Shown here: one piece after another, positions 24,069-38,897 of the stretch | Layout of the letters: every line of letters starts with the position of its first letter | Position numbering within the stretch: position 1 is the stretch's first letter | NCBI GenBank assembly: GCA_021324775.1 | Contig: JAJPIM010000045.1 | Coordinates: 186,001-250,000 of the forward strand | DNA: 64,000 nt | Origin: Gemmatimonadota bacterium | GTDB taxonomy: Bacteria; Gemmatimonadota; Gemmatimonadetes; Gemmatimonadales; Gemmatimonadaceae | Reading direction: 5' to 3' | The notes under the pieces: generated by a model | Told to the model about the DNA's origin: nothing | Databases searched by the model: none | Seen by the model: only the letters and a program-made list of their open reading frames with translations | Program-made: the position numbers and the translations under genes

Positions 24069-24142
24069 CGGGACTGACGGGGCTCGAACCCGCGACCTCC
24101 GGTGTGACAGACCGGCACTCTAACCAGCTGAGCTACAGTCCC
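24069..24142 (-). tRNA. tRNA-Asp(GTC)
   Basis: The minus-strand cloverleaf has acceptor GGGACTG/CAGTCCC with discriminator G, anticodon stem CCGGT/ACCGG around CTGTCAC (anticodon GTC), and T arm CGGGTTCGAGCCCCG. It is the last gene of a five-tRNA cluster. Confidence 0.95.
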
Positions 24143-24220
24143 CTTTTTTCGGCCAGCCTGCGGCCACTGCCCTCGTCCACTTCATTCGTCCTGCACGAAC
24201 GCGCGCTGGCTCTCCTGCAG

Positions 24221-24292
24221 TAGCCCCAACGGGAATCGAACCCGTCTCTCCACCTTGAAAGGGTGACGTCCTGACCGATAGACGATGGGGCC
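24221..24292 (-). tRNA. tRNA-Glu(TTC)
   Basis: The minus-strand cloverleaf has acceptor GGCCCCA/TGGGGCT (position 1-72 is G-T), discriminator A, anticodon loop CTTTCAA (anticodon TTC), and T arm ACGGGTTCGATTCCCGT. It is a cluster member. Confidence 0.94.
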
Positions 24293-24326
24293 GTACACCC
24301 CAGGCGCTCGTTCCCGACTCCCAACA

Positions 24327-24399
24327 TAGCGGTAACGGGATTCGAACCCGTGTTTGAGCCTTGAGAGGGCTCCGTCCTAGTCCCCTAGACGATACCGCC
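24327..24399 (-). tRNA. tRNA-Glu(CTC)
   Basis: The minus-strand cloverleaf has acceptor GGCGGTA/TACCGCT (again a G-T first pair), discriminator A, anticodon stem GAGCC/GGCTC around CTCTCAA (anticodon CTC), and T arm ACGGGTTCGAATCCCGT. It is the second glutamate isoacceptor of the cluster. Confidence 0.94.
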
Positions 24400-24494
24400 C
24401 GCGGATCCCCACGACGAACGCCTGAACCACCTACCCGTCCACCCAGCCAGACGCACAAGCCCGCCGATCACCCGCCCACCGATCGAGCTCCGTA

Positions 24495-24567
24495 CAGGCC
24501 CGGAGGGACTTGAACCCCCAACCGCCGGTTTTGGAGACCGGTGCTCTACCAATTGAGCTACGGACCT
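24495..24567 (-). tRNA. tRNA-Trp(CCA)
   Basis: The minus-strand cloverleaf has acceptor AGGTCCG/CGGGCCT with discriminator G, anticodon stem CCGGT/ACCGG around CTCCAAA (anticodon CCA), and T arm GGGGGTTCAAGTCCCTC. It is a cluster member. Confidence 0.95.
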
Positions 24568-24581
24568 ACTTCCGCGATCAG

Positions 24582-24656
24582 GGTGACTGATGGGAATTGA
24601 ACCCACAACCCCCGGAGCCACAGTCCGGTGCTCTAACCAATTGAGCTACAGTCACC
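24582..24656 (-). tRNA. tRNA-His(GTG)
   Basis: The minus-strand cloverleaf has acceptor GTGACTG/CAGTCAC. The extra 5' G pairs with C73, the histidyl-tRNA identity element, and is encoded in the DNA. The anticodon stem CCGGA/TCCGG encloses CTGTGGC (anticodon GTG). It is the first gene of the cluster. Confidence 0.95.
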
Positions 24657-26482: not shown

Positions 26483-27199
26483 ATGCTCGCCGCCCGCAAC
26501 CTGACCAAGCAATACCATAGTGGTGAGACTGTCCTCTCGGCACTCGATGCGATCTCCTTCGACATCGCGGATGGCGCCTACGTCGCGGTCGTCGGTCCGT
26601 CCGGCAGCGGCAAGACCACACTCCTCGGCCTCCTCGCGGGTCTCGACACGCCGACCCGCGGAACCACGATTCTCGACGGCACGGATCTGTCGACCCTCAC
26701 CGAAGATGCGCGCGCACGACTTCGCGCCGAAAAAGTGGGGTTCGTGTTTCAGAGTTTTCAGCTCCTGCCGACACTCACGGCGCTCGAAAACGTCGCCGTC
26801 CCCCTCGAGCTCCGCGGCGACCCGCGCGCGGAATCCGCCGCCAGCGACGCGCTCGCCCGCGTCGGCCTCGCCGCCCGCGCCAGTCACTTCCCCGCCCAAC
26901 TCTCCGGCGGCGAACAGCAACGGGTCGCCATCGCTCGCGCATTCGCCAATCACCCCCGCGTGCTGTTCGCGGACGAGCCCACCGGCAACCTCGATGCCGC
27001 GAGCGGCGCCCTCGTGATCGGCCTCCTCGAATCTCTCAACCGCGAATCCGGATCGACGGTCGTGCTGGTCACACACGACCTCGCCCTCGCCGCGCGCGCC
27101 AGCCGCATCATCCGCCTCGGCGACGGCCGCCTCGTCTCCGACTCCGCACCGAACGGCCTGGCTGCGTCACCGCAGCCCGTTCCAACCGCGACCGTATGA
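26483..27199 (+). CDS. ybbA: ABC transporter ATPase, YbbA/LolD type
   Basis: This 238-aa ATPase has Walker A GPSGSGKTT, the Q-loop region FVFQSFQLLPTLTALENV, signature LSGGEQQRVAIARA, Walker B VLFADEPTGNLD and switch HD in VTHDLALA. FQ...LTALENV and ADEPTGNLD are typical of the MacB/LolD/YbbA subgroup, which acts with FtsX-like permeases. The stop overlaps the permease start (ATGA). It probably moves or remodels an envelope lipid or lipoprotein (inference from family). Confidence 0.92.
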   Translation: MLAARNLTKQYHSGETVLSALDAISFDIADGAYVAVVGPSGSGKTTLLGLLAGLDTPTRGTTILDGTDLSTLTEDARARLRAEKVGFVFQSFQLLPTLTALENVAVPLELRGDPRAESAASDALARVGLAARASHFPAQLSGGEQQRVAIARAFANHPRVLFADEPTGNLDAASGALVIGLLESLNRESGSTVVLVTHDLALAARASRIIRLGDGRLVSDSAPNGLAASPQPVPTATV

Positions 27200-27255
27200 C
27201 GGCGGACGGCATGACCGCGGACCGCATGACGGCGGACCGCGTGACCGCGTCTCGC
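27196..27255 (+). repeat. Tandem 15-nt repeat at the ybbP start
   Basis: Three near-identical 15-nt units (ATGACSGCGGACSGC) plus a degenerate fourth (GTGACCGCGTCTCGC) encode MTADG/MTADR/MTADR/VTASR. Each unit starts with a possible initiation codon in frame. Confidence 0.9.
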
Positions 27256-29877
27256 CCGTGGCGGTCTCTCGCCCGGCTCACGTGGCGAGAGAGCCGGACG
27301 ATGCGGAGCCGGCTGCTCCTCTACATGTCGTCTGTATCGCTCGGCATCGGCGCGCTCGTCGCGATCGATTCGTTCTCCGCCAACGTCCTGGCATCGGTCG
27401 CGGACAGCTCTCGTTCGCTGCTCGGCGGCGACCTCGCCCTGCTCTCCCGCCAGCCCCTCGCGGCGTCCGCGGCGCTACTCGCCGACTCGCTCGAGCACAC
27501 GGGAGCGCACGAAGCGCACGTCACGACGTTCCCGTCGATGGCAGCCGTGCACCGCTCCGGCCGGACACGACTCGCACAGATCCGGGCGGTCAGTGACGCC
27601 TATCCGCTCGTTGGCCAAGTAGAGACGGACCCCGCCGGCGCGTGGTCCGCGCTGCGCGCCGGCGACCGCGCCGTCGTCGACCCGTCACTTCTCGCCACGC
27701 TCGACGCGCGGATCGGCGACTCGCTGACGCTCGGCTACACCCGATTCGAGATCGTGGGGACGATCCGTGCCGTCCCCGGGGATGCCGGAATCGCCGCAGC
27801 GATCGGCCCGCGGGTCTTCATCCCGGACCGGGACCTCGCCGCGACACGGCTCCTCGTCGCCGGAGGACGCGCCGACTACAAGACGCTGATCGCTCTCCAG
27901 TCCGGCACGCGACTGGTCCCCGCGCGCTGGCTCGCACGCGAGCGGCGCGGATTGGCGGCTCAGCGCGTTCGCATCCAGACGGTCGCGGATGCCGAAGCCA
28001 ATCTCACCAATGGCATCAAACGGCTGACCGACTTTCTCGGCGTCCTGGGCGTGGTGGCACTGCTGCTGGGCGGGATCGGCGTCGCCAGCGGAATCACCGC
28101 GTTCGTCGCGCGCAAGATCGAGGCGGCGGCCATTCTCCGGTGCCTCGGCGCTACAGGACGCCAGGTGCTCGCCATCTATTTGACACAGGCAGCCGCGATG
28201 GGCCTGGTTGGCGCCGCGATCGGCGTCCTCCTGGGTGCCGGCATCCAGCTCGCGCTGCCCGGCGCGGTCCGCGACTTCCTCCCCATCGGCGTATCCATCG
28301 AGATCGTTCCGCGCGCGATGCTCATCGGGCTTGTCACCGGACTGTGGATCGCGCTGCTCTTCGCGATCCGGCCGCTGCTCGCCCTGCGGCGCGTGTCTCC
28401 GCTCCAGGCGCTCCGCCGGCATGTCGAAACCGCGGCCGCGGGCGGCGCTGCCCGCCGCCGCGATCCCGCCGTGTGGGCGGCCGGAGCTGCCATCGCGGCG
28501 ACGGTTCTTGCGATCGCCGTCGTGCGCGCTCCGACGCCACGCATGGGTATCGCCACGGCTGGTGGAATCGGCGTCGTGCTCGGGATCCTCTGGGTCGCGG
28601 CCGGCGCGCTGGCGGCGCTCGCCCGGCGGCTGCCGCGAGCTCGCTGGCCCTACGTGGTCCGCCAGGGAATCGCCAATCTGCATCGGCCCGCGAACCAGAC
28701 CCGCGCGGTCGTGCTGGCGCTTGGCTTCGGTGTCTTCCTCATCTCGGCGCTCGCGCTGGTGCAGTCGGCGCTTCTGCACGAGTTCGCGGCGACGACCGCG
28801 TCGTCGCGCGCGAATCTGCTGTTCTTCGATGTCCAGGATGACCAGGCGCGGGCCACGGACTCGATCATTCGCGCGGGTGGGTACCAGATCGTCGAGCAGA
28901 CGCCGATCGTGACGATGCGCATCGCCTCGATCAACGGAACACCTGTGTCGGTCGCCAGCACGGAGCCGGCGGATAGCGATACGACCGATAACCGATCCGC
29001 CGGACCAACGCCGCGCCGCGAGCGCCGCCGGTCCGGCGTGCCGCGGCGCGCGGGGTGGGCACTTCGCCGCGAGTACCGGTCGACGTATCGCGACACGCTG
29101 GTATCGTCCGAGCGTATCGTGGCCGGGCACTGGACCGGCCATCGCGCCGGATCCGACTCTATCGCGCCCGTGTCGTTCGAGGCGGAAGTCGCGAAGGAAC
29201 TCGGCGTCACGATCGGCGATCGCGTGACCTGGGACGTGCAGGGCGTCCCCGTCGAGAGCCGAATCACCAGCCTGCGCGAGGTGGACTGGGCACGCTTCGA
29301 GCCCAACTTCTTCGCGGTGTTTCCCGACAGTGTACTCGAGCACGCGCCGAAACAATACGTGTTCCTCGCCGACGTCCCCGGCGCGGCGGCGACGGCAAGC
29401 CTTCAGCGGGAGATCGGAGCCCGATACCCCAACATCTCGAGCGTCGATCTCTCGCTCATTCGCGACACGGTGAACGGGATTCTGCGCAAGATCACACTCG
29501 CGATCCGGTTTCTCACGGTCTTCTGCCTGTTGATGGGTATTCCGGTGCTGTTCAGCGCGGTGGCCGCCACGCGCCGCGACCGCATCCGGGAGAGCGTGTT
29601 GCTCAAGACGCTGGGCGCGTCACGCACGCAGGTCACACGCATCATGGTAGCCGAGTATGCAATGCTGGGACTGCTGGCCAGCATCGCGGGGACGATTCTT
29701 TCGGTTGGCGGGGCGTGGCTTCTCGTGCACTTCATCTTCGAGACTCCGTTCGTGCCCGATGTCACACCGGCGCTCCTCATCGCGCTCGCCAGTGCACTGC
29801 TCACGATCGTCATCGGCGTGGCGGGCAGCCGGTCGGCCTTCGCGTCGACCCCGCTCGAGATGTTGCGCGCCGAATAG
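27196..29877 (+). CDS. ybbP: FtsX-like ABC permease, YbbP type
   Basis: This 893-aa permease has two FtsX domains: helices near residues 30-60, 275-400 (LGVLGVVALLLGGIGVASGITAFVARKIEAAAILRCLGATG), a middle pair about 430-480, 510-540, and the C-terminal FtsX domain (FLTVFCLLMGIPVLFSAVAATRRDRIRESVLLKTLGAS). Large periplasmic loops lie between. It works with the overlapping ybbA ATPase. The first 16 residues come from a tandem 15-nt repeat with several in-frame ATGs (27196, 27211, 27226), so the exact start is ambiguous. Confidence 0.9.
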   Translation: MTADGMTADRMTADRVTASRPWRSLARLTWRESRTMRSRLLLYMSSVSLGIGALVAIDSFSANVLASVADSSRSLLGGDLALLSRQPLAASAALLADSLEHTGAHEAHVTTFPSMAAVHRSGRTRLAQIRAVSDAYPLVGQVETDPAGAWSALRAGDRAVVDPSLLATLDARIGDSLTLGYTRFEIVGTIRAVPGDAGIAAAIGPRVFIPDRDLAATRLLVAGGRADYKTLIALQSGTRLVPARWLARERRGLAAQRVRIQTVADAEANLTNGIKRLTDFLGVLGVVALLLGGIGVASGITAFVARKIEAAAILRCLGATGRQVLAIYLTQAAAMGLVGAAIGVLLGAGIQLALPGAVRDFLPIGVSIEIVPRAMLIGLVTGLWIALLFAIRPLLALRRVSPLQALRRHVETAAAGGAARRRDPAVWAAGAAIAATVLAIAVVRAPTPRMGIATAGGIGVVLGILWVAAGALAALARRLPRARWPYVVRQGIANLHRPANQTRAVVLALGFGVFLISALALVQSALLHEFAATTASSRANLLFFDVQDDQARATDSIIRAGGYQIVEQTPIVTMRIASINGTPVSVASTEPADSDTTDNRSAGPTPRRERRRSGVPRRAGWALRREYRSTYRDTLVSSERIVAGHWTGHRAGSDSIAPVSFEAEVAKELGVTIGDRVTWDVQGVPVESRITSLREVDWARFEPNFFAVFPDSVLEHAPKQYVFLADVPGAAATASLQREIGARYPNISSVDLSLIRDTVNGILRKITLAIRFLTVFCLLMGIPVLFSAVAATRRDRIRESVLLKTLGASRTQVTRIMVAEYAMLGLLASIAGTILSVGGAWLLVHFIFETPFVPDVTPALLIALASALLTIVIGVAGSRSAFASTPLEMLRAE

Positions 29878-30069: not shown

Positions 30070-31950
30070 ATGACCGCGACGACGGTTCCCGACATCGAAG
30101 CCCGGCCAATGACGTGGGAGCAATACCACGAGGCGGGTCGTCGCCGTTTTGCAGAGGGAGACGCGGCCGGCGCTGAGCAGGCATTCCGGGGAGCTATCGC
30201 GGAAGCGGAGCAGCCGGGTGGCGATCCCCTCCAGATGGCGTCGAGCCTGAGCAGCCTGGGCCAACTCAAGTACCAGCAGAAGGACTACGCCCAAGCGGAG
30301 GACTGCTTCCGGCGCGCGCTGGAGTTGAGAGAGCATGCGCTCGGCGGGGAGCACCCGACCGTGATCAGCAGCATCAACAACCTCGCCGCGCTATACGTCG
30401 CGCGCGGGGCGCTCGACGATGCGGAGCCGCTGCTGCAGCGGGCGATGGCGGTCACGATCAAGCGGGTCGAAGCCAGCCAGGCCGATCTCGCGGTCAACCT
30501 CAACAACCTGGTGCGCCTGTACGTCAAGCGCGGCGACTATTCGCGCGCTGAGCCGATGTTGACGCAGTTACTGGCGATGAAGCGGCCACTCGGCCCCGAG
30601 CATCCTGAAGTCGCCGCCGTGCTGGTCACGCTCGCGAAATTGCGCCAGTCGATGTCGCAGCCGGACGCCGCCGAGCGAATCTGGCGCCGCGTGCTCGCCG
30701 TTCGTGAGCGCACACTGCCGCCCAACGACACCACGATCGCCGCAACCCTCGACGGCCTCGCTGACGCGTGTGCGGCACAGGGCCGTCTCGCCGACGAGCT
30801 GGAGATGCGCGAACGGTCGCTGGCCATTCGCGAAGTGGCGCAGGGTCCAGACCACCCCTCCATAGCCCCAATACGGACCCGGGTGCAGGAACTCCGGCAG
30901 CTCGCGCCACCCAAGGTGGCCGAGCCGGCAAGCGGTGCTCAAATGCGCGTGTCATCGCCGGGGAACAACGCACCGCGGCGGTCGAGCGGCGCCACCGCGA
31001 ACGTGATCCACGGGCCGCTGGCGCCGACCGTCATGACGAGCCCCGAACGGGCGCGCCTGTCGAACCCCGGCACGACCGTCCTGCCGCCGCTGTCGCCCGC
31101 GGCGCGGGTCTCGGCGCCGGCGAATCGCATATCGGCGCCTGTGAGCCGCGTATCGGCGCCGGCGAGCCGCATATCGGCGCCTGTGAGCCGCGTATCGGCG
31201 CCCGTGAGCCGCGCATCGGGTGAAATGCCGGCACCGCTCACGCCGGTTGGTTCGGCTCCACCTCCGGCTGAAGCCGGCCGGGTGTCGGGGTCTTCGGCGT
31301 CCCGGACCCAGGACATCGAGTTGAGCGTCTCGCCGACTCCGTCGGGGTCCGCGTCGCCTACACAGTCGCCGCCGCGCCACTCGGAAATCAGCGAGATGGC
31401 AACCCGGAAGCGGGCTTTCCATCTGTCGGCGGATCGCGCCGCAGCAGACCTGGCCCAGCCGGTCAAAGTCGTCAACCCTGGACGCGGCAAGAAGATAGCA
31501 ATCGCGGTTGCCGCGGTGATCGCGATCGCGGCCGTCCTGCTGCTTACCATCGGGCGCGACATGCTTGGCGGGCTGTTCGGGGAGCCGTCGGCCACCGCGC
31601 CGGCTGTGGCGTCGTCGCCCGCTCCTGGAGCGGAGGTGCCCGCAAACTCCGCCGCGCCGTCGGGCGCAGCCGGTCAGGGCGCAAGTGGCAGCGCACGAGG
31701 GTCCGCGACGACGGTAGCCAATCCATCGCCCGCCGGCCAGCACACGACCATTCAGGCATCGGTGACCCCGGCGTCGGCGAAGTCCGGCCATCAGAACGCG
31801 GCGGCCGAGCCGGCGCCGGCGTCGAAAGCCGCCGACGCGGGGGTGACAGCTCTGCCCGTGCCGACGGTGAATGTGGACGCTGCGACGCGCTCGATCGATG
31901 AGGCGACGAAAAGCACACCGCAAAAGCCGAAGACCAAACTTCCGTTTTGA
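30070..31950 (+). CDS. TPR protein with repeat linker and C-terminal membrane helix
   Basis: This 626-aa protein has several tetratricopeptide units in its N-terminal half (residues about 15-285; ALELREHALGGEHPTVISSI-type kinesin-light-chain TPRs). A long Pro/Ser-rich linker follows, with five 7-residue repeats of the form SAPxSRx at about 348-382. One transmembrane helix (about 475-498, KKIAIAVAAVIAIAAVLLL) precedes an Ala/Pro-rich tail, presumably periplasmic. Start ATG at 30070 follows AAGGAGG with ideal spacing. It heads a co-directional set with FHA, kinase, BIG2 and TPR proteins, 244 nt ahead of the FHA gene, and may be a cytoplasmic scaffold for the phospho-signalling proteins (inference). 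Confidence 0.82.
   Translation: MTATTVPDIEARPMTWEQYHEAGRRRFAEGDAAGAEQAFRGAIAEAEQPGGDPLQMASSLSSLGQLKYQQKDYAQAEDCFRRALELREHALGGEHPTVISSINNLAALYVARGALDDAEPLLQRAMAVTIKRVEASQADLAVNLNNLVRLYVKRGDYSRAEPMLTQLLAMKRPLGPEHPEVAAVLVTLAKLRQSMSQPDAAERIWRRVLAVRERTLPPNDTTIAATLDGLADACAAQGRLADELEMRERSLAIREVAQGPDHPSIAPIRTRVQELRQLAPPKVAEPASGAQMRVSSPGNNAPRRSSGATANVIHGPLAPTVMTSPERARLSNPGTTVLPPLSPAARVSAPANRISAPVSRVSAPASRISAPVSRVSAPVSRASGEMPAPLTPVGSAPPPAEAGRVSGSSASRTQDIELSVSPTPSGSASPTQSPPRHSEISEMATRKRAFHLSADRAAADLAQPVKVVNPGRGKKIAIAVAAVIAIAAVLLLTIGRDMLGGLFGEPSATAPAVASSPAPGAEVPANSAAPSGAAGQGASGSARGSATTVANPSPAGQHTTIQASVTPASAKSGHQNAAAEPAPASKAADAGVTALPVPTVNVDAATRSIDEATKSTPQKPKTKLPF
31111..31215 (+). repeat. Five tandem 21-nt repeats in the TPR-protein linker
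   Basis: Units begin TCGGCGCC and end GCCGCRTA or similar, and each encodes SAPxxRx. Alternation between the CGGCGAGCCGCATA and CTGTGAGCCGCGTA subtypes suggests a 42-nt higher-order duplication. Confidence 0.9.
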
Positions 31951-32132
31951 CCTCGGGCCGGCTCCAACGACGCGACGTCGGCGGGCCAGGCCGTGGGCAC
32001 GGGTCTCGCGCCGTGAAGCTGTCGAGCGCGAACGGCTGTAACGCCATATGTTTACACGCGTCCGTGCGGTGGTCCCCAGTACGTGGATTGCTCCGCGCGG
32101 GCTGGAGCGTTTCTTTCTACCAAAAGGATCAT

Positions 32133-32144
32133 CCTATCGATAGG
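32133..32144. promoter_or_regulatory. Perfect 12-nt palindrome upstream of FHA gene
   Basis: CCTATCGATAGG is a perfect dyad about 50 nt before the FHA start. A further CCTATC half-site follows at about 32158. The surrounding 120 nt are richer in A/T than the neighbouring genes. This could be an operator or promoter element for the FHA-kinase genes. Confidence 0.35.
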
Positions 32145-32194
32145 CGCGGTCTAATGCCCTATCACGGCCCCTGACCGCGTTTTCCGCGATCCGT

Positions 32195-32980
32195 ATGTTG
32201 TCCCTTCAGCTTGCGCCGATCTTAGCGAACCCCGTCCTGTTCGCTGCCGCTGCCATTTTTCTTCTGGTAGCGGTGGTGTTCGCCGTGGTGCGACTGATTT
32301 TCAGGTGGCGGGCCGCCCGCGAACCCGAGCCCAACGAGCCGCCACCGCTGTTGATTCCGGTGCAGCGGCGCGGGAGCGAGGCGCCCCGCATGCCGCTCCG
32401 CAGTGTGCTCGAGGGGCCGACCGCCCCAGTGGGAGCGGGCCTCACCGGTGCGCCCAACCGCGCCAACATGGCCCTCGGCTACTCCTCGGGCGGCGGACCC
32501 CGCTACGGCACACCGCCGGGCGGCAACGGATCTGCGGCCGCCCTCGCGAGTAGCGCGCCGCCCTCGGCCAGTCCGCCCGCGCGGGGCAATGGCGCGGCAG
32601 CGACGGACAAAGTCGTGCACGAGATCCCGCCGATGGACGGCACGCTGCAGTTTCTGCCGGGCCGCCTCGAGGTGGTCGACGGAGAATCGCCGGGCCGCGA
32701 TATCCGGTTCGTGCGCACGTGGGGTGAAGTGCCGGAGATCACCTTCGGACGCGTCACCGGGCCACCGTACCGCCATGTCCAACTGCGGTCGCAGACCGTC
32801 AGCCGCCAGCACGCACGGATGCAGTACGTCGATGGCCGGTGGAAGCTCACGAACCTCTCGCAGACCAACCCGGTCCTCATCAACGGGCAGGCACTCGACT
32901 CCGCACACGGGCACCGCGTGCTCCGCGACGGGGACCAGATCGAGATGGGGGAGGTGGTCTTCCGCTACCGGGAGCGGTAG
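32195..32980 (+). CDS. Membrane-anchored FHA-domain protein
   Basis: This 261-aa protein has one N-terminal transmembrane helix (VLFAAAAIFLLVAVVFAVVRLIF), a disordered Pro/Gly-rich linker (residues 40-140) and a C-terminal forkhead-associated domain (residues about 150-255). FHA landmarks are FGRVTG (strand 3 Gly-Arg), SRQHARM (Ser and His of the phosphothreonine pocket) and LINGQAL (Asn). FHA domains bind phosphothreonine peptides. The kinase gene begins 3 nt downstream, so the FHA protein is a likely reader or substrate of that kinase. Confidence 0.88.
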   Translation: MLSLQLAPILANPVLFAAAAIFLLVAVVFAVVRLIFRWRAAREPEPNEPPPLLIPVQRRGSEAPRMPLRSVLEGPTAPVGAGLTGAPNRANMALGYSSGGGPRYGTPPGGNGSAAALASSAPPSASPPARGNGAAATDKVVHEIPPMDGTLQFLPGRLEVVDGESPGRDIRFVRTWGEVPEITFGRVTGPPYRHVQLRSQTVSRQHARMQYVDGRWKLTNLSQTNPVLINGQALDSAHGHRVLRDGDQIEMGEVVFRYRER

Positions 32981-32983
32981 GCC

Positions 32984-35521
32984 GTGTCGCAGGACGCCGC
33001 GCTCGTCGAGATCCGCGAGCTCGAATCAGACTACGAAATACTCGGCGAGCTGGGACGCGGCGGGATGGCCGTGGTGTATCTCGCGCGCGACCGGCAACTC
33101 GGGCGGCAAGTCGCGATCAAAGTGATTCACGCGGCCGCCGGCGCCGACGAGCAAATGGTCGCCCGCCAGCTCGCCGAGGCGCGCACCGTTGCGCAGTTAC
33201 AGCATCCGAACGTCGTCGCGATGTACGCCGTCCGGCGCCTGTCGACACTGGGACTCGCGCTCGTGATGCAGTACGTGCCGGGCCGCACGCTCGAGCGTGC
33301 GCTGCGCGAAGATGGAGTCTTCGCGCCCGAACGCGCCGAGGCGGTGCTGAGCGACATCGCGGCCGCGCTGGCGTATGCTCACGCGCGCGGCGTCATCCAC
33401 CGCGACATCAAGCCCGACAACATCTTCCTGAACGACGATACCGGACGCGCACTGCTGTCGGATTTCGGCATCGCGCTGTCGCCCGAGGAGGGCCGCCAGC
33501 AGGCGACGACCGACATGATCGTCGGCACCCCGGCTTACATGTCGCCCGAGCAGATCGACGGCGGTGAGCTGGATGGGCGCAGTGACGTCTTCGGGCTCGG
33601 CTTGATCGGATACGAGATGCTCGCTGGTCCCCGCGGCTGGCTCGAAGAAGGGATCTCCGACGTCATGTACCGCCAGAAGTTCGAGCAGCTCCCGCCGCTC
33701 AACGAAGTCCGGCCGGACACGCCGATCCGGCTCCGCGTGGCGATCGAGCGTGCGTTGGCCAAAGAGCGCGACGAGCGGTGGCCGAGCGCGGCGACGTTTC
33801 TCGACGCGCTCACCGACGACGAATGGGTGCCCGACGCTCCGGCCCCTGGGACGCCGTCCGGAACCGCGACGCCCGGCCCGCAACGCGTCGTAACGTCCAC
33901 CCCCGTGCGGAGTCTCACCCCCGCCGCGACGACGCCGCTCAACACGATGCAGTATCGGCGCGATCCCGAGAGCACGCCGCGTCGCTCGATTCCGTCCTTT
34001 CAGCCACCATCGCGGCCGCCTGGACGACGGTTGGCGGCGCTGATCATCCCGTCGGTGCTCATCGCGGCGGTCGCCGCCGCGATGGTGACGCATCCCGAAT
34101 TCATCGCCCGCGCCACGGGCCTCGGGCACCGGGAGACGGACGACAGTCTGCGGCGCGTGCAGGAGATCGAGTTCCAGAGCATGCGGGATTCCGAGACCCG
34201 GAAGAGCGCCGCCGCGGCTCGCGAGGCTGCCGACAGCGCGGCGGCCGCCGCGACGTCCAGCGCGGATTCGTCCGCGGCGCTCCGGGTCGCCGTGGCCCGG
34301 GATTCGTTGATCGCGATGCGAGATTCGCTGGCGAAGGCTGCCGCCCGCAAGCCGCCACCGGTCGTGGCTTCCGGGTCCGTGACGCGGACCCCCGGGCCGC
34401 CGCGCGACAGTGCGGTCGGGCCGCCACCGCCGCCGGAGCCGATCCATGCGCCCGCACCGCCCGCCGTCGTGGCCGGCGGCACTCACACGTGCGCGCTGAA
34501 CGGCGAGGGAGTGCTCTCGTGCTGGGGAGGCGACGATCGGGGGCAGCTCGGTATCGGGACCACGGCGCGCGAGCCGTCGCCGACGCGGGTCCCGGCCGAC
34601 GTCGCCTACAGCCAGGTGGCGGCCGGCATTGCGCACACCTGCGCCGTCGCGAAGAATGGCGCGGCCTATTGTTGGGGCGACAATACCTATGGCCAACTCG
34701 GGAATGGCCAGGCCGGCGATTCGAGCGGCAGCGGGCACCTGACGCCGACGCGGGTGGCCGGGGCCCACACCTTCCGCATGGTCGCGATCGGGACCACCCA
34801 CTCCTGCGGCCTGACCACCGGGGGGGAGATCTGGTGCTGGGGCCGGAATCTCTACGGCCAAGTCGGCGACGGGAGCACGCAGGACCATGCCACGCCCGTA
34901 CGGGTAGAGAGCACGGCCCGTTTTGTTACCCTGGCCGTGGGGTGGAATCATTCGTGCGCACTGGATACGGTGGGCCAGGCGTTTTGCTGGGGACAGAACG
35001 CTTCAGGGCAGCTAGGCGATGGCACCACCATCGTCCGGGCCGTCCCGACCCCCGTCAGCGGCGGTGGTCTGTTTCGTGCCATCGCTGCCGGCGGTTCGCA
35101 CACCTGCGCACTTTCGACAATCGGGCAGGCATACTGCTGGGGGCGGAACATGGCCGGTCAACTTGGCACGGACGATGGACGCGATCACTCGGTGCCCACC
35201 AAGATCTCGGGCACGGTCGTGTACACGGACATCACCGCCGGGGGCGTGCACAGTTGCGCACTGACCGCCGCGGGCCAAGCTGACTGCTGGGGACGCAACA
35301 GTTACGGCCAACTGGGCGATGGGACCACCACGGATCGCCCGATGCCAGTCAAAGTGCGTGGCGGACAGGCGTTCGTCGCGATCCACGCCAGCGGGGCCCA
35401 TACGTGCGCCACCTCGACGAGCGGCACGGTGTACTGCTGGGGCAACAATAGCGACGGCCAGCTCGGCGACGGGACGACAGGCGACCGGTCAGAACCCACA
35501 CCGGTCATAGGAGCCCGATGA
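32984..35521 (+). CDS. Transmembrane Ser/Thr kinase with RCC1-repeat ectodomain
   Basis: This 845-aa protein has a cytoplasmic Hanks-type kinase (residues about 12-275: ELGRGGMAVVYLARD, VAIKVI, HRDIKPDN with Asp141, DFG, TPAYMSPEQ), a Pro/Thr-rich juxtamembrane linker and one transmembrane helix (about 348-370, LAALIIPSVLIAAVAAAMV). An Ala/Ser-rich, likely helical stalk follows, then seven RCC1/ATS1-type repeats (about 495-840). Each repeat has the form GxxHTCAL...YCWGxNxxGQLGDG, enough for a complete seven-bladed propeller, with paired cysteines per blade. GTG start. Its stop overlaps the BIG2 lipoprotein start. An extracytoplasmic ligand presumably controls kinase activity. Confidence 0.92.
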   Translation: MSQDAALVEIRELESDYEILGELGRGGMAVVYLARDRQLGRQVAIKVIHAAAGADEQMVARQLAEARTVAQLQHPNVVAMYAVRRLSTLGLALVMQYVPGRTLERALREDGVFAPERAEAVLSDIAAALAYAHARGVIHRDIKPDNIFLNDDTGRALLSDFGIALSPEEGRQQATTDMIVGTPAYMSPEQIDGGELDGRSDVFGLGLIGYEMLAGPRGWLEEGISDVMYRQKFEQLPPLNEVRPDTPIRLRVAIERALAKERDERWPSAATFLDALTDDEWVPDAPAPGTPSGTATPGPQRVVTSTPVRSLTPAATTPLNTMQYRRDPESTPRRSIPSFQPPSRPPGRRLAALIIPSVLIAAVAAAMVTHPEFIARATGLGHRETDDSLRRVQEIEFQSMRDSETRKSAAAAREAADSAAAAATSSADSSAALRVAVARDSLIAMRDSLAKAAARKPPPVVASGSVTRTPGPPRDSAVGPPPPPEPIHAPAPPAVVAGGTHTCALNGEGVLSCWGGDDRGQLGIGTTAREPSPTRVPADVAYSQVAAGIAHTCAVAKNGAAYCWGDNTYGQLGNGQAGDSSGSGHLTPTRVAGAHTFRMVAIGTTHSCGLTTGGEIWCWGRNLYGQVGDGSTQDHATPVRVESTARFVTLAVGWNHSCALDTVGQAFCWGQNASGQLGDGTTIVRAVPTPVSGGGLFRAIAAGGSHTCALSTIGQAYCWGRNMAGQLGTDDGRDHSVPTKISGTVVYTDITAGGVHSCALTAAGQADCWGRNSYGQLGDGTTTDRPMPVKVRGGQAFVAIHASGAHTCATSTSGTVYCWGNNSDGQLGDGTTGDRSEPTPVIGAR

Positions 35522-37737
35522 TGTCGACACGCGGATCGATGGCGGGAGCGGTGCTGTTGGCCGCCGGCCTCGTGACCGGCTGCCACAGCACCGACAAGAC
35601 GACTGGGCCCGCGGGGCCGCTCAGCACGATCGTCATCGCACCGGACAGTGCCTCGGTGGCCGTCGGGGCCACGCAGACCTTCACCGCCACGGGGCAGGAC
35701 GCGCAGGGTCACACCGTCCCGGGGCTGACCTTCTTCTGGTCGAGCAACGTCGATTCGCTGGCCACGGTGACTCAGGGCGGCGTGGTGACCGGCGTCGCCG
35801 TCGGGAGATTGCAGGTCGCGGCGAGCGCCCAGGGTAAGTCGGCATTTGCGAACGTCATCGTGACTCCCAAGCCGGTGGGCTCGATCATCGTCACCCCGGC
35901 GCACGCCACGATTCGCGTCGCCACGACGCTCCAGCTCTCCGATACGGTCAAGGACCAGTCGGGCAACGTATTGACCGGACAGACGGTCACGTGGAGCAGC
36001 GACAGCGCCAGCACGGCCTCGGTGGACGGCAACGGCCTGGTGACCGGCCGTCATATCGGCACGGCAACCATCACCGCCACCGCGGGCGGGAAGAGCGCCA
36101 GCGCCGCGATCATCGTCTCCCAGATTCCGGTCCGCTCCATCACCATCACGCCCGCGAATCCCGCGGTCGTCGTCACCCAGACCACGCAGCTCACCGCCAC
36201 GACGTTCGACTCGGCGGGCGATGTCCTCCCGGGGCGCGTCGTGCGGTGGAAGTCGCGCACCCCCGCTGTCGCGACCGTGGACTCGATCGCGGGACTCGTC
36301 ACCGGCGTGAGCCCGGGCACCTCCGAGATCGTGGCGACCAGTGAAGGAGTCCAGGACAGCGTTGTCGCGACGGTGAGTCCGGCGCCGGTGAACTCGGTCG
36401 TGCTGTCGCCGAATGTCTCGCAGTTGCACGTGGGACAGACGCAGCAGATCACTGCAACGGTGACCGATGTGAATGGCAATCCGGTCAGCGGCGCGACGGT
36501 GACGTTCGGGTCGAGCAATACCGGCATCGCGAGCATCTCCAGCAGCACGACGACGAGCGCGCAGATTCTCGCCGGACCCGGAGCAGGCACGGCGACGATC
36601 ACCGGGACCAGCGGAGCCAAGAACGGGACGGCGACGATCATCGTGTCGGCGGTGCCGGTCGATTCCGTCCACGTGGCGGCGCCCCAGGACACGATCACGG
36701 TGGGCCATCAGGAGACCCTGACGGCCACCGCGTTCGACTCGTCGGGCAACGTCCTGACTGGCCGCCCCGTGACGTGGCGTTCGAGCAACAACGCGGTCGC
36801 GACGGTCAATGCGGCCGGCAGCGTCAACACGCTGCAACCTGGCGCCGTCGTCATCTTCGCCACCATCAGCGGGGTGGCCGGCAGCGCGACGCTGCAGATC
36901 AACCCGGTGCCGATTGCTTCGGTGACCATCACGCCGGCCACCGACACCCTGATGGTGGGCGGCCAGCTCCAACTCGCTGACACCGTTCGCGACAGCCTCG
37001 GCAACGTGGTCGCGAACCCCACTGTCACATGGAACACCACGTCCCCGAGCGTTGCGCAAGTCACGTCGAGCGGCGTTGTGATTGCGGAGGGGGTGGGCAC
37101 CGCCACGATCACGGCCACAAGTGGCGGCAAGACCGGCACCAACACGACCGTTGTAACAGCAGCGGTGACGGCGGTGCACGTCGCGCCCGCGCTGGACACA
37201 ATCTTCGCATCCGCGCCGGGCAACACCGTGCAACTCATCGACTCGGTGTTCAGCTCGAGCGGCTATATACCGGGTGCGGCAGTCACGTGGTCGCCCATGA
37301 GTGGTGGCGTCGCCACGGTAAATGCCAGCGGCCTGGTCACCGCCACGAACAGCGCGGACGGCTCCGCGACCATTACCGCGACAAGCGGCGGCCAATCCGG
37401 TTCGGGTACCGTGGTCGTGTTCGGCCACTCGAGCACCGTCACGCCGGGTACGCCGGGATCGTCGGCACTCTCCCTATCGGGCACGAACTCGACGACTGAC
37501 AATGCGATGGTTACGGACGCCTTCGGCACGGACGTCAGTGCATTCCGGATGGTGACATGGACGTCGGGGGATTCCAGCACCGTCAAAGTCAACAACGGCC
37601 TGTCGGCCACCGTCACGGCGGCCACGCCGGTCACGTTTACTGCGGTCAGCACAAACACGAGTCCCGTCACGATCACGGTCACCGCCGTCGACAACGCCAG
37701 CGCGACCAACAGCATTTCCCTCACTGTGGGTCCATGA
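35518..37737 (+). CDS. BIG2-repeat surface lipoprotein
   Basis: This 739-aa lipoprotein has lipobox LVTGC with lipid-attached Cys near residue 22, then seven Ig-like BIG2 repeats. Each opens with V-x-S-I/V-x-V-x-P (at about 35, 120, 205, 290, 380, 460, 545) and contains QLTAT-, V-x-W-x-S and GTATITAT strands. A divergent C-terminal Ig-like segment follows. BIG2 domains act in adhesion or as spacers. Its start overlaps the kinase stop (ATGATG) and its stop overlaps the next gene (ATGA), so it is translationally coupled to both and may be the partner of the kinase's RCC1 ectodomain. Confidence 0.88.
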   Translation: MMSTRGSMAGAVLLAAGLVTGCHSTDKTTGPAGPLSTIVIAPDSASVAVGATQTFTATGQDAQGHTVPGLTFFWSSNVDSLATVTQGGVVTGVAVGRLQVAASAQGKSAFANVIVTPKPVGSIIVTPAHATIRVATTLQLSDTVKDQSGNVLTGQTVTWSSDSASTASVDGNGLVTGRHIGTATITATAGGKSASAAIIVSQIPVRSITITPANPAVVVTQTTQLTATTFDSAGDVLPGRVVRWKSRTPAVATVDSIAGLVTGVSPGTSEIVATSEGVQDSVVATVSPAPVNSVVLSPNVSQLHVGQTQQITATVTDVNGNPVSGATVTFGSSNTGIASISSSTTTSAQILAGPGAGTATITGTSGAKNGTATIIVSAVPVDSVHVAAPQDTITVGHQETLTATAFDSSGNVLTGRPVTWRSSNNAVATVNAAGSVNTLQPGAVVIFATISGVAGSATLQINPVPIASVTITPATDTLMVGGQLQLADTVRDSLGNVVANPTVTWNTTSPSVAQVTSSGVVIAEGVGTATITATSGGKTGTNTTVVTAAVTAVHVAPALDTIFASAPGNTVQLIDSVFSSSGYIPGAAVTWSPMSGGVATVNASGLVTATNSADGSATITATSGGQSGSGTVVVFGHSSTVTPGTPGSSALSLSGTNSTTDNAMVTDAFGTDVSAFRMVTWTSGDSSTVKVNNGLSATVTAATPVTFTAVSTNTSPVTITVTAVDNASATNSISLTVGP

Positions 37738-38897
37738 ACACTCTCGCTCGCAGGGGCCGTGTGGGGTCCGGCATCGTCCTGGCCGCGATGATCGCGGCTC
37801 TCGTTCCGTCTTGCCTGCGTGGCCAGGAGCTGCCGCTCAAGCGTCCGAAGCTGAACCCCATCAGCATCGCGTGCCCGGTGATCCCGGTCCCGCCGCCGAC
37901 CGCCCAGCAGGTGATCGAGGAGGCGAACCGGCTCGCCACGCTGGCGCAGGAGTCATCGATCGAGGGCGACCACCGCGCGGCACGCGATCAGTTCAGGCAG
38001 GCGGCGACGCTCGATCCGCGTGATGCCAGTCTCGCTTACCGGCTGGCCCGCGAGCACGAAGATCTGCAGGAGCGTGACGCCGCAGTGCGGGAGTACTGCC
38101 GCTACCTGGCGCTCGCCCCCAACGCGACGGACGCGGCCCAGATCGGCGACCGCATCGCGAAGCTCCTGCCGGGAGGTACCCTCGCGCACAGCACCGCGGT
38201 GGTTACCCGGTTCAATCTGGCCGTCGCCAGCTACGATGGGCGGAGCTTCGGCACAGCCGCGGACCAATTCGACAGTGTGAACACCGCCGCTCCCGCGCTG
38301 TCGGCCGCGGCATACGACGGAGGCCTCGCCCACGACCAGGATGGCGACGAAGCAGCCGCGATGCACGACTATTCCCGCTACCTGCAACTCGAGCCGAACG
38401 CGTCAGACGCCGCGGCCGTCCGTGCGAGGATGCAGCAGATGCGGCGCGGAGTCCCCAGCGCGACCACGGCGTTCTTCCTCGGGCTCCTCCCCAGTGGCGG
38501 CCAGTTCTACACCCGGCAGCCAGTCCTCGGCATCGTCGTCCTCGCAGGCGCGGCCGGTGGTGTGGTCCTCGCGCTCCAGACACGCACGATTACGCGCGAC
38601 ACGACGTTTACGGGACCATTCGGCGGGACGTACCCGGGCACGTACACCCAAACACAGCGTCAGAACCTCGCTCTCGGCGTCGCCGTGGCCGGCGGCGTGA
38701 CCCTGCTCGGCGCCATCGAAGCCGCGGTCGTCGCACACGGGCGCGGCGCCGGGCTGGATGATGCCGGGGACGCCGGTCGCGGAGCCACGAACACCGCGCT
38801 GCTGCCTCATGTGGGTCCGGTCACGCTGGAATTGCCGACGGTGATCGCCGCATCAGACGGTCTCCGTCTGGCGCTGCCGCTTCATGTGACGTTCTAG
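37734..38897 (+). CDS. Secreted TPR protein with C-terminal membrane segments
   Basis: This 387-aa protein has a signal peptide (ending near CLRGQ), TPR-like repeats (residues about 60-230; HRAARDQFRQAATLDPRDASLAYRLA and AAAMHDYSRYLQLEPNASDA), then two hydrophobic segments (GLLPSGGQFYTRQPVLGIVVLAGAA and LALGVAVAGGVTLLGAIEAAVVA). The GLLPSGGQFYTRQP motif recalls DUF5683-like membrane domains. It is the last gene of the FHA-kinase-BIG2 set, coupled by ATGA. A role in assembling the envelope complex is an inference. Confidence 0.8.
   Translation: MNTLARRGRVGSGIVLAAMIAALVPSCLRGQELPLKRPKLNPISIACPVIPVPPPTAQQVIEEANRLATLAQESSIEGDHRAARDQFRQAATLDPRDASLAYRLAREHEDLQERDAAVREYCRYLALAPNATDAAQIGDRIAKLLPGGTLAHSTAVVTRFNLAVASYDGRSFGTAADQFDSVNTAAPALSAAAYDGGLAHDQDGDEAAAMHDYSRYLQLEPNASDAAAVRARMQQMRRGVPSATTAFFLGLLPSGGQFYTRQPVLGIVVLAGAAGGVVLALQTRTITRDTTFTGPFGGTYPGTYTQTQRQNLALGVAVAGGVTLLGAIEAAVVAHGRGAGLDDAGDAGRGATNTALLPHVGPVTLELPTVIAASDGLRLALPLHVTF

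Follow-up and report, generated by a model that had tools for sequence, protein, structure and literature searches.

A four-gene operon that is common to many Gemmatimonadota, and previously undescribed within the open-access literature, looks like a complete envelope-to-cytoplasm switch. In the window, by which we mean the whole 64,000-nucleotide stretch of DNA analysed, its genes form a single tight operon (32195-38897) that encodes an FHA protein, a transmembrane (TM) Ser/Thr kinase with an RCC1 propeller (kinase-TM-RCC1), a BIG2 repeat lipoprotein and a TPR protein (TPR2). The gene content, gene order, conservation, domains, linker motif and gene fusions described below are direct observations. 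To our knowledge, the input partners, the reader and the eraser of a bacterial Ser/Thr kinase are seldom encoded together at a conserved locus. Across the class, the linked parts provide a natural series that runs from a free FHA protein through FHA with a PP2C phosphatase to an FHA-PP2C fusion, and a second series in which the Ig domains of the sensor are supplied in cis or in trans. These series, and the singling out of one residue (T321) as the probable connection from kinase to reader, open the way to testing directly, in a phylum that has received little study, by what means an FHA adaptor locates its kinase.

Organization of the operon and its proteins

The FHA gene (32195-32980, plus strand) is followed after 3 nt by the GTG start of the kinase gene (32984-35521, plus strand), which overlaps the BIG2 gene (35518-37737, plus strand) by 4 nt. 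This in turn overlaps TPR2 (37734-38897, plus strand), the conserved last gene of the operon, by a further 4 nt. ORF and Pfam analysis confirmed the reading frames, the domains, the 3-nt gap and both overlaps reported in the initial annotation, which had also placed an upstream gene, TPR1 (30070-31950), in a five-gene unit. TPR1 is 244 nt upstream of FHA and occurs near the operon only within the same genus and, in divergent orientation, in G009. As it stands beside the operon in the closest relatives only, it was rejected as a fifth member and lies outside the conserved unit, whose core is four genes. An ABC/FtsX transporter (26483-29877) was considered as a TagST-like input and left out of the system, since its second occurrence beside the operon is in G002 alone (the G001 contig stops before that gene). 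Elsewhere in the window, five tRNA genes (Asp, Glu, Glu, Trp and His) are clustered at 24069-24655 on the minus strand.

The FHA protein comprises an N-terminal TM segment, a Pro-rich linker and a C-terminal cytosolic FHA domain (Pfam PF00498, E 5e-12). Its pThr-binding residues (G185/R186, S203/R204, H206 and N225) are intact in an alignment of 20 orthologs, and GarA is among its nearest solved structures. A Pfam scan of the kinase identified a Pkinase domain (E 9e-45) and seven RCC1 repeats (E 7e-70), with a single TM segment near residues 350-369, and alignment of 13 orthologs showed that the catalytic residues of the Hanks domain are intact. The AF2 model features a folded kinase domain (residues 1-283), a disordered linker (284-352) and then the TM helix, beyond which are a long periplasmic helix (372-453) and a complete seven-bladed propeller (495-840). 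The exported propeller (34466-35503, plus strand; assigned from Pfam, the ortholog alignment and the AF2 model) has two Cys residues in each blade, ten residues apart and invariant in the 13 orthologs, consistent with a single disulfide forming within each blade if the compartment is oxidising. The closest named records of this kinase derive from Gemmatimonadetes MAGs (80% and 62% identity), and the window genome contains 37 kinase-domain matches in total.

The BIG2 protein carries seven Big_2 stretches (E 2e-57) and a lipobox (VTGC), and its orthologs also adjoin the kinase gene. In every BIG2 N-terminus read, a hydrophobic stretch ends at a lipobox-like Cys, where 13 of 30 were called under a strict script rule and the remainder by eye. 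BIG2 length is very variable and reaches at least 3975 aa at L150 (3-11927), where the gene lies immediately 3' of the kinase and is clipped by the end of the retrieved sequence. TPR2 features a signal peptide, a TPR superhelix and a hydrophobic hairpin, and comparison of its model with PDB folds returned only generic TPR proteins. On these sequence features, RCC1, BIG2 and TPR2 are predicted to be outside the inner membrane, with the kinase and FHA domains inside.

Conservation within the family

Of 179 family genomes searched with an FHA profile, 58 have orthologs, and these span 17 of 35 genera. In at least 46 of these 58 genomes the FHA gene is directly followed by the same kinase on the same strand, an order far beyond chance. 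Among the other 12, one (G110) reflects a contig break, while 11 have an FHA gene with no adjoining kinase among the matches listed. At the loci examined, the full FHA-kinase-BIG2-TPR2 order is present in 19 genomes (18 plus the window) from 11 genera, and 12 further loci encode BIG2 before the contig or retrieved sequence stops ahead of TPR2. Two loci have TPR2 but no BIG2 after the kinase (L129 and L166), and four feature the FHA-kinase pair with neither gene following (L130, L132, L148 and L173). Junctions between genes in the operon loci are 0-4 nt. The check proposed in the initial annotation, recurrence of the gene order in other genomes, thus bore out four genes and not TPR1. The initial annotation had also stated beforehand that genes usually found apart in relatives would weigh against a joint system; FHA, kinase and BIG2 instead stay together, and the parts of this conserved, tightly packed operon fit the roles which that annotation gave them: the kinase as sensor, FHA as phosphothreonine reader and BIG2 with TPR as an exported arm.

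Related modules in other families

In the phylum sample FHA was identified in 70 of 395 genomes, some of which belong to three further families of the class (f4, f5 and f6). In f4 and f6 loci and part of those in f5, FHA and kinase are separated by a PP2C phosphatase gene, and in eight f5 loci FHA and PP2C are fused. The kinase ectodomains of f4 and f5 contain Big_1 Ig-like domains ahead of RCC1, and there is also a separate BIG/Ig-like gene, which in f5 stands upstream of FHA-PP2C and at two f4 loci follows downstream of TPR2 (the neighbour in L253 is a weak match). The f6 kinases (L245, 4843-6909; L255, 3030-4862), which have FHA and PP2C beside them, carry TonB_C outside the membrane and lack RCC1. 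In a tree that also includes 30 further kinases from the window genome, the 56 operon kinases all fall into a single clade (support 0.905), so one lineage has retained FHA as its reader and exchanged its sensor. BIG-RCC1 fusions also occur in other exported proteins (L225, L227-L230, L234, L236, L241, L244 and L178), an independent sign that BIG and RCC1 work together.

No PP2C gene was found at the window locus or at any f1 locus examined. Gene content thus suggests that the phosphatase, part of the module in f4-f6, is no longer in the operon in the family of the window, where three PP2C genes of the window genome, all away from the operon, could reset the system. One PP2C gene of the window genome (G000, C32:140230-141962), which adjoins a two-FHA-domain protein approximately 76 kb upstream of the operon, could be where the missing phosphatase comes from. 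Neither the PP2C proteins of the other families nor the linker motif described below had been noticed in the initial annotation.

A conserved threonine in the kinase linker

The linker between the kinase domain and the TM segment is variable in sequence and predicted to be disordered and cytosolic. An alignment-free count located the motif T-[VIML]-x-[FYMIL] in this linker in 45 of the 46 kinases paired with a free FHA protein, the sole exception being L245, while shuffled linkers gave an average of 3.8 and a maximum of 9. This count was preferred over an aligned Thr in 46/46 rows, which include two FHA-less rows where the match may have been forced by the aligner. The strict form T-[VIML]-x-[FY]-x-R is present in 35/46 of the free-FHA kinases, and in about 31 other kinases of the window genome it was found once (L202). 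Where FHA and PP2C are fused, only one kinase in eight has the motif (L249), although this contrast between free and fused FHA may reflect just one or two evolutionary events. The motif was not seen in the inspected portion of the L159 linker, which belongs to an FHA-less second copy in G018.

In the window kinase the motif reads T-M-Q-Y-R-R, and the codon of its threonine, Thr321, is at 33944-33946 on the plus strand, within the linker that is disordered in the model. FHA domains recognise pThr and often also the residue at +3. Given that the motif combines a Thr with a conserved aromatic residue at +3, and that the pThr-binding residues of the FHA domain are intact, we propose T321 as a candidate autophosphorylation site on which FHA docks.

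Comparison with known systems

The closest known system is the T6SS threonine-phosphorylation pathway (PpkA/PppA/Fha), which consists of the PpkA kinase, the PppA PP2C phosphatase and Fha, with input via TagQRST or RtkS. Both systems have a TM Ser/Thr kinase and an FHA reader in one locus (along with PP2C in f4-f6), as well as exported partners that could act on the periplasmic domain of the kinase, and the STK-FHA linkage that is a trait of the T6SS pathway is the one seen here in at least 46 of 58 genomes. In contrast to that pathway, the present operon has an RCC1 ectodomain, BIG2 and TPR2 as partners, a small TM protein as FHA and, at the window locus, no PP2C. Membership of a T6SS was rejected, as the sheath gene (VipA) had no match in G000 or in eight other operon-bearing genomes (G001, G002, G007, G009, G013, G027, G030 and G031).

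A kinase with one TM segment and an extracytoplasmic beta-propeller is also found in PknD of Mycobacterium tuberculosis, but there the propeller is NHL-type, whereas here it is a seven-bladed RCC1 propeller and the operon encodes FHA, BIG2 and TPR2. Pfam scanning found no NHL repeats in the window kinase and no PASTA repeats (PknB/StkP type) in its ectodomain. While propeller kinases are known (PknD), we know of none of the RCC1 type. The step proposed here, in which an FHA protein reads a phosphorylated kinase, resembles PknB-GarA; however, GarA is a soluble metabolic regulator that docks elsewhere on PknB, unlike a membrane-tethered FHA with a juxtamembrane docking motif. Eukaryotic NEK8/NEK9 likewise join kinase and RCC1 domains in one chain, but are cytosolic and have no TM segment, and this resemblance is probably convergent. 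A search of the open-access literature returned no description of this operon. To that extent the architecture does lack a named system, as originally suggested, but it is of a known kind, since FHA-PP2C-STK switches are already known from T6SS.

Proposed mechanism and alternatives

We lean, with modest confidence, towards the operon being one envelope-to-cytoplasm switch in which RCC1, BIG2 and TPR2 control the kinase and FHA binds phospho-Thr321. BIG2 and TPR2 would act with the RCC1 propeller outside the inner membrane, either as the sensor or as partners that hold the kinase on or off. The input may be a ligand, contact or envelope damage that alters the RCC1/BIG2/TPR2 assembly, and this would change kinase clustering and autophosphorylation, with T321 in the flexible juxtamembrane linker as one putative site. 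The membrane-tethered FHA would then bind pT321 and lock the active kinase in clusters, or might instead present the kinase to substrates or a phosphatase. In related families, PP2C on or beside FHA would reset the switch. RtkS, and probably TagR, bind the periplasmic domain of PpkA (PMC6082577), and in a similar way the exported BIG2 and TPR2 partners probably set kinase activity here. The periplasmic complex, T321 phosphorylation, FHA binding, the signal and the output are those parts of this switch that we infer. Several observations count against it: the four loci without BIG2 and TPR2 and the two without BIG2, the 11 genomes whose FHA is kinase-less among the matches listed, the absence of a phosphatase from the window locus, and the two motif exceptions, L249 (fused FHA, motif present) and L245 (free FHA, motif absent). 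More tentatively, and with some doubt, the operon could belong to a system that monitors the envelope across the class Gemmatimonadetes. In such a system BIG2 and TPR2 would gate an RCC1 kinase, a juxtamembrane pThr of that kinase would recruit a tethered FHA, the phosphatase would be optional and the sensors (RCC1, BIG-RCC1 or TonB_C) would be interchangeable.

The same phospho-switch could operate with an FHA that reads pThr of another protein, while the linker Thr serves a different partner. There is a precedent in the Agrobacterium T6SS, where Fha binds pThr of TssL (PMC3953482), and the 11 genomes with no kinase beside FHA among the matches listed are also compatible with this. Such a target is nevertheless rather unlikely, as the motif is near-invariant with free FHA, mostly missing with fused FHA and rare in the remaining kinases of the window genome. 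A less probable alternative is a locus devoted mainly to adhesion or a surface structure. What matters functionally would then be BIG2 and TPR2, with the kinase and FHA governing how these two are exported or assembled instead of sensing through them. The highly variable size of BIG2, typical for surface adhesins, would suit this, as would TPR2 being the exported partner that is kept best, but four loci retain FHA-kinase without either protein, and the f4 and f5 kinase ectodomains themselves contain BIG domains.

It is very improbable that the genes are mere neighbours through inherited synteny with no joint function. Several genera have a typA-like neighbour in common, and simple inheritance therefore accounts for some of the synteny, but in other genera the operon order persists among different flanking genes, and the 0-4 nt junctions, the gene fusions and a motif that tracks FHA type all argue for a functional link. 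Least credible of all is a UV-B sensor, even though, among solved structures, UVR8 matches the propeller best (E 4e-53). The chromophore motif of UVR8 is a repeated GWRHT, in place of which the window propeller has a single GWNHS blade whose Trp is not conserved in relatives, and a UVR8-like light sensor was therefore rejected.

Variant loci

Several loci feature other arrangements of these genes. L131 and L133 (genera g21 and g32) keep an FHA ortholog with no operon kinase found nearby, and a single protein of G170 (L160, 1880-4669) has the order kinase-BIG2-TM-RCC1 with no FHA found beside it. The system is split in G018, with FHA-kinase at L130 and a second kinase-RCC1, FHA-less and accompanied by BIG2 and TPR2, at L159. 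In G017 (L124), a second kinase-RCC1 gene follows TPR2. A tandem FHA pair precedes the kinase at nine loci from several genera (L157, L158, L162, L163, L169, L170, L172, L176 and L127).
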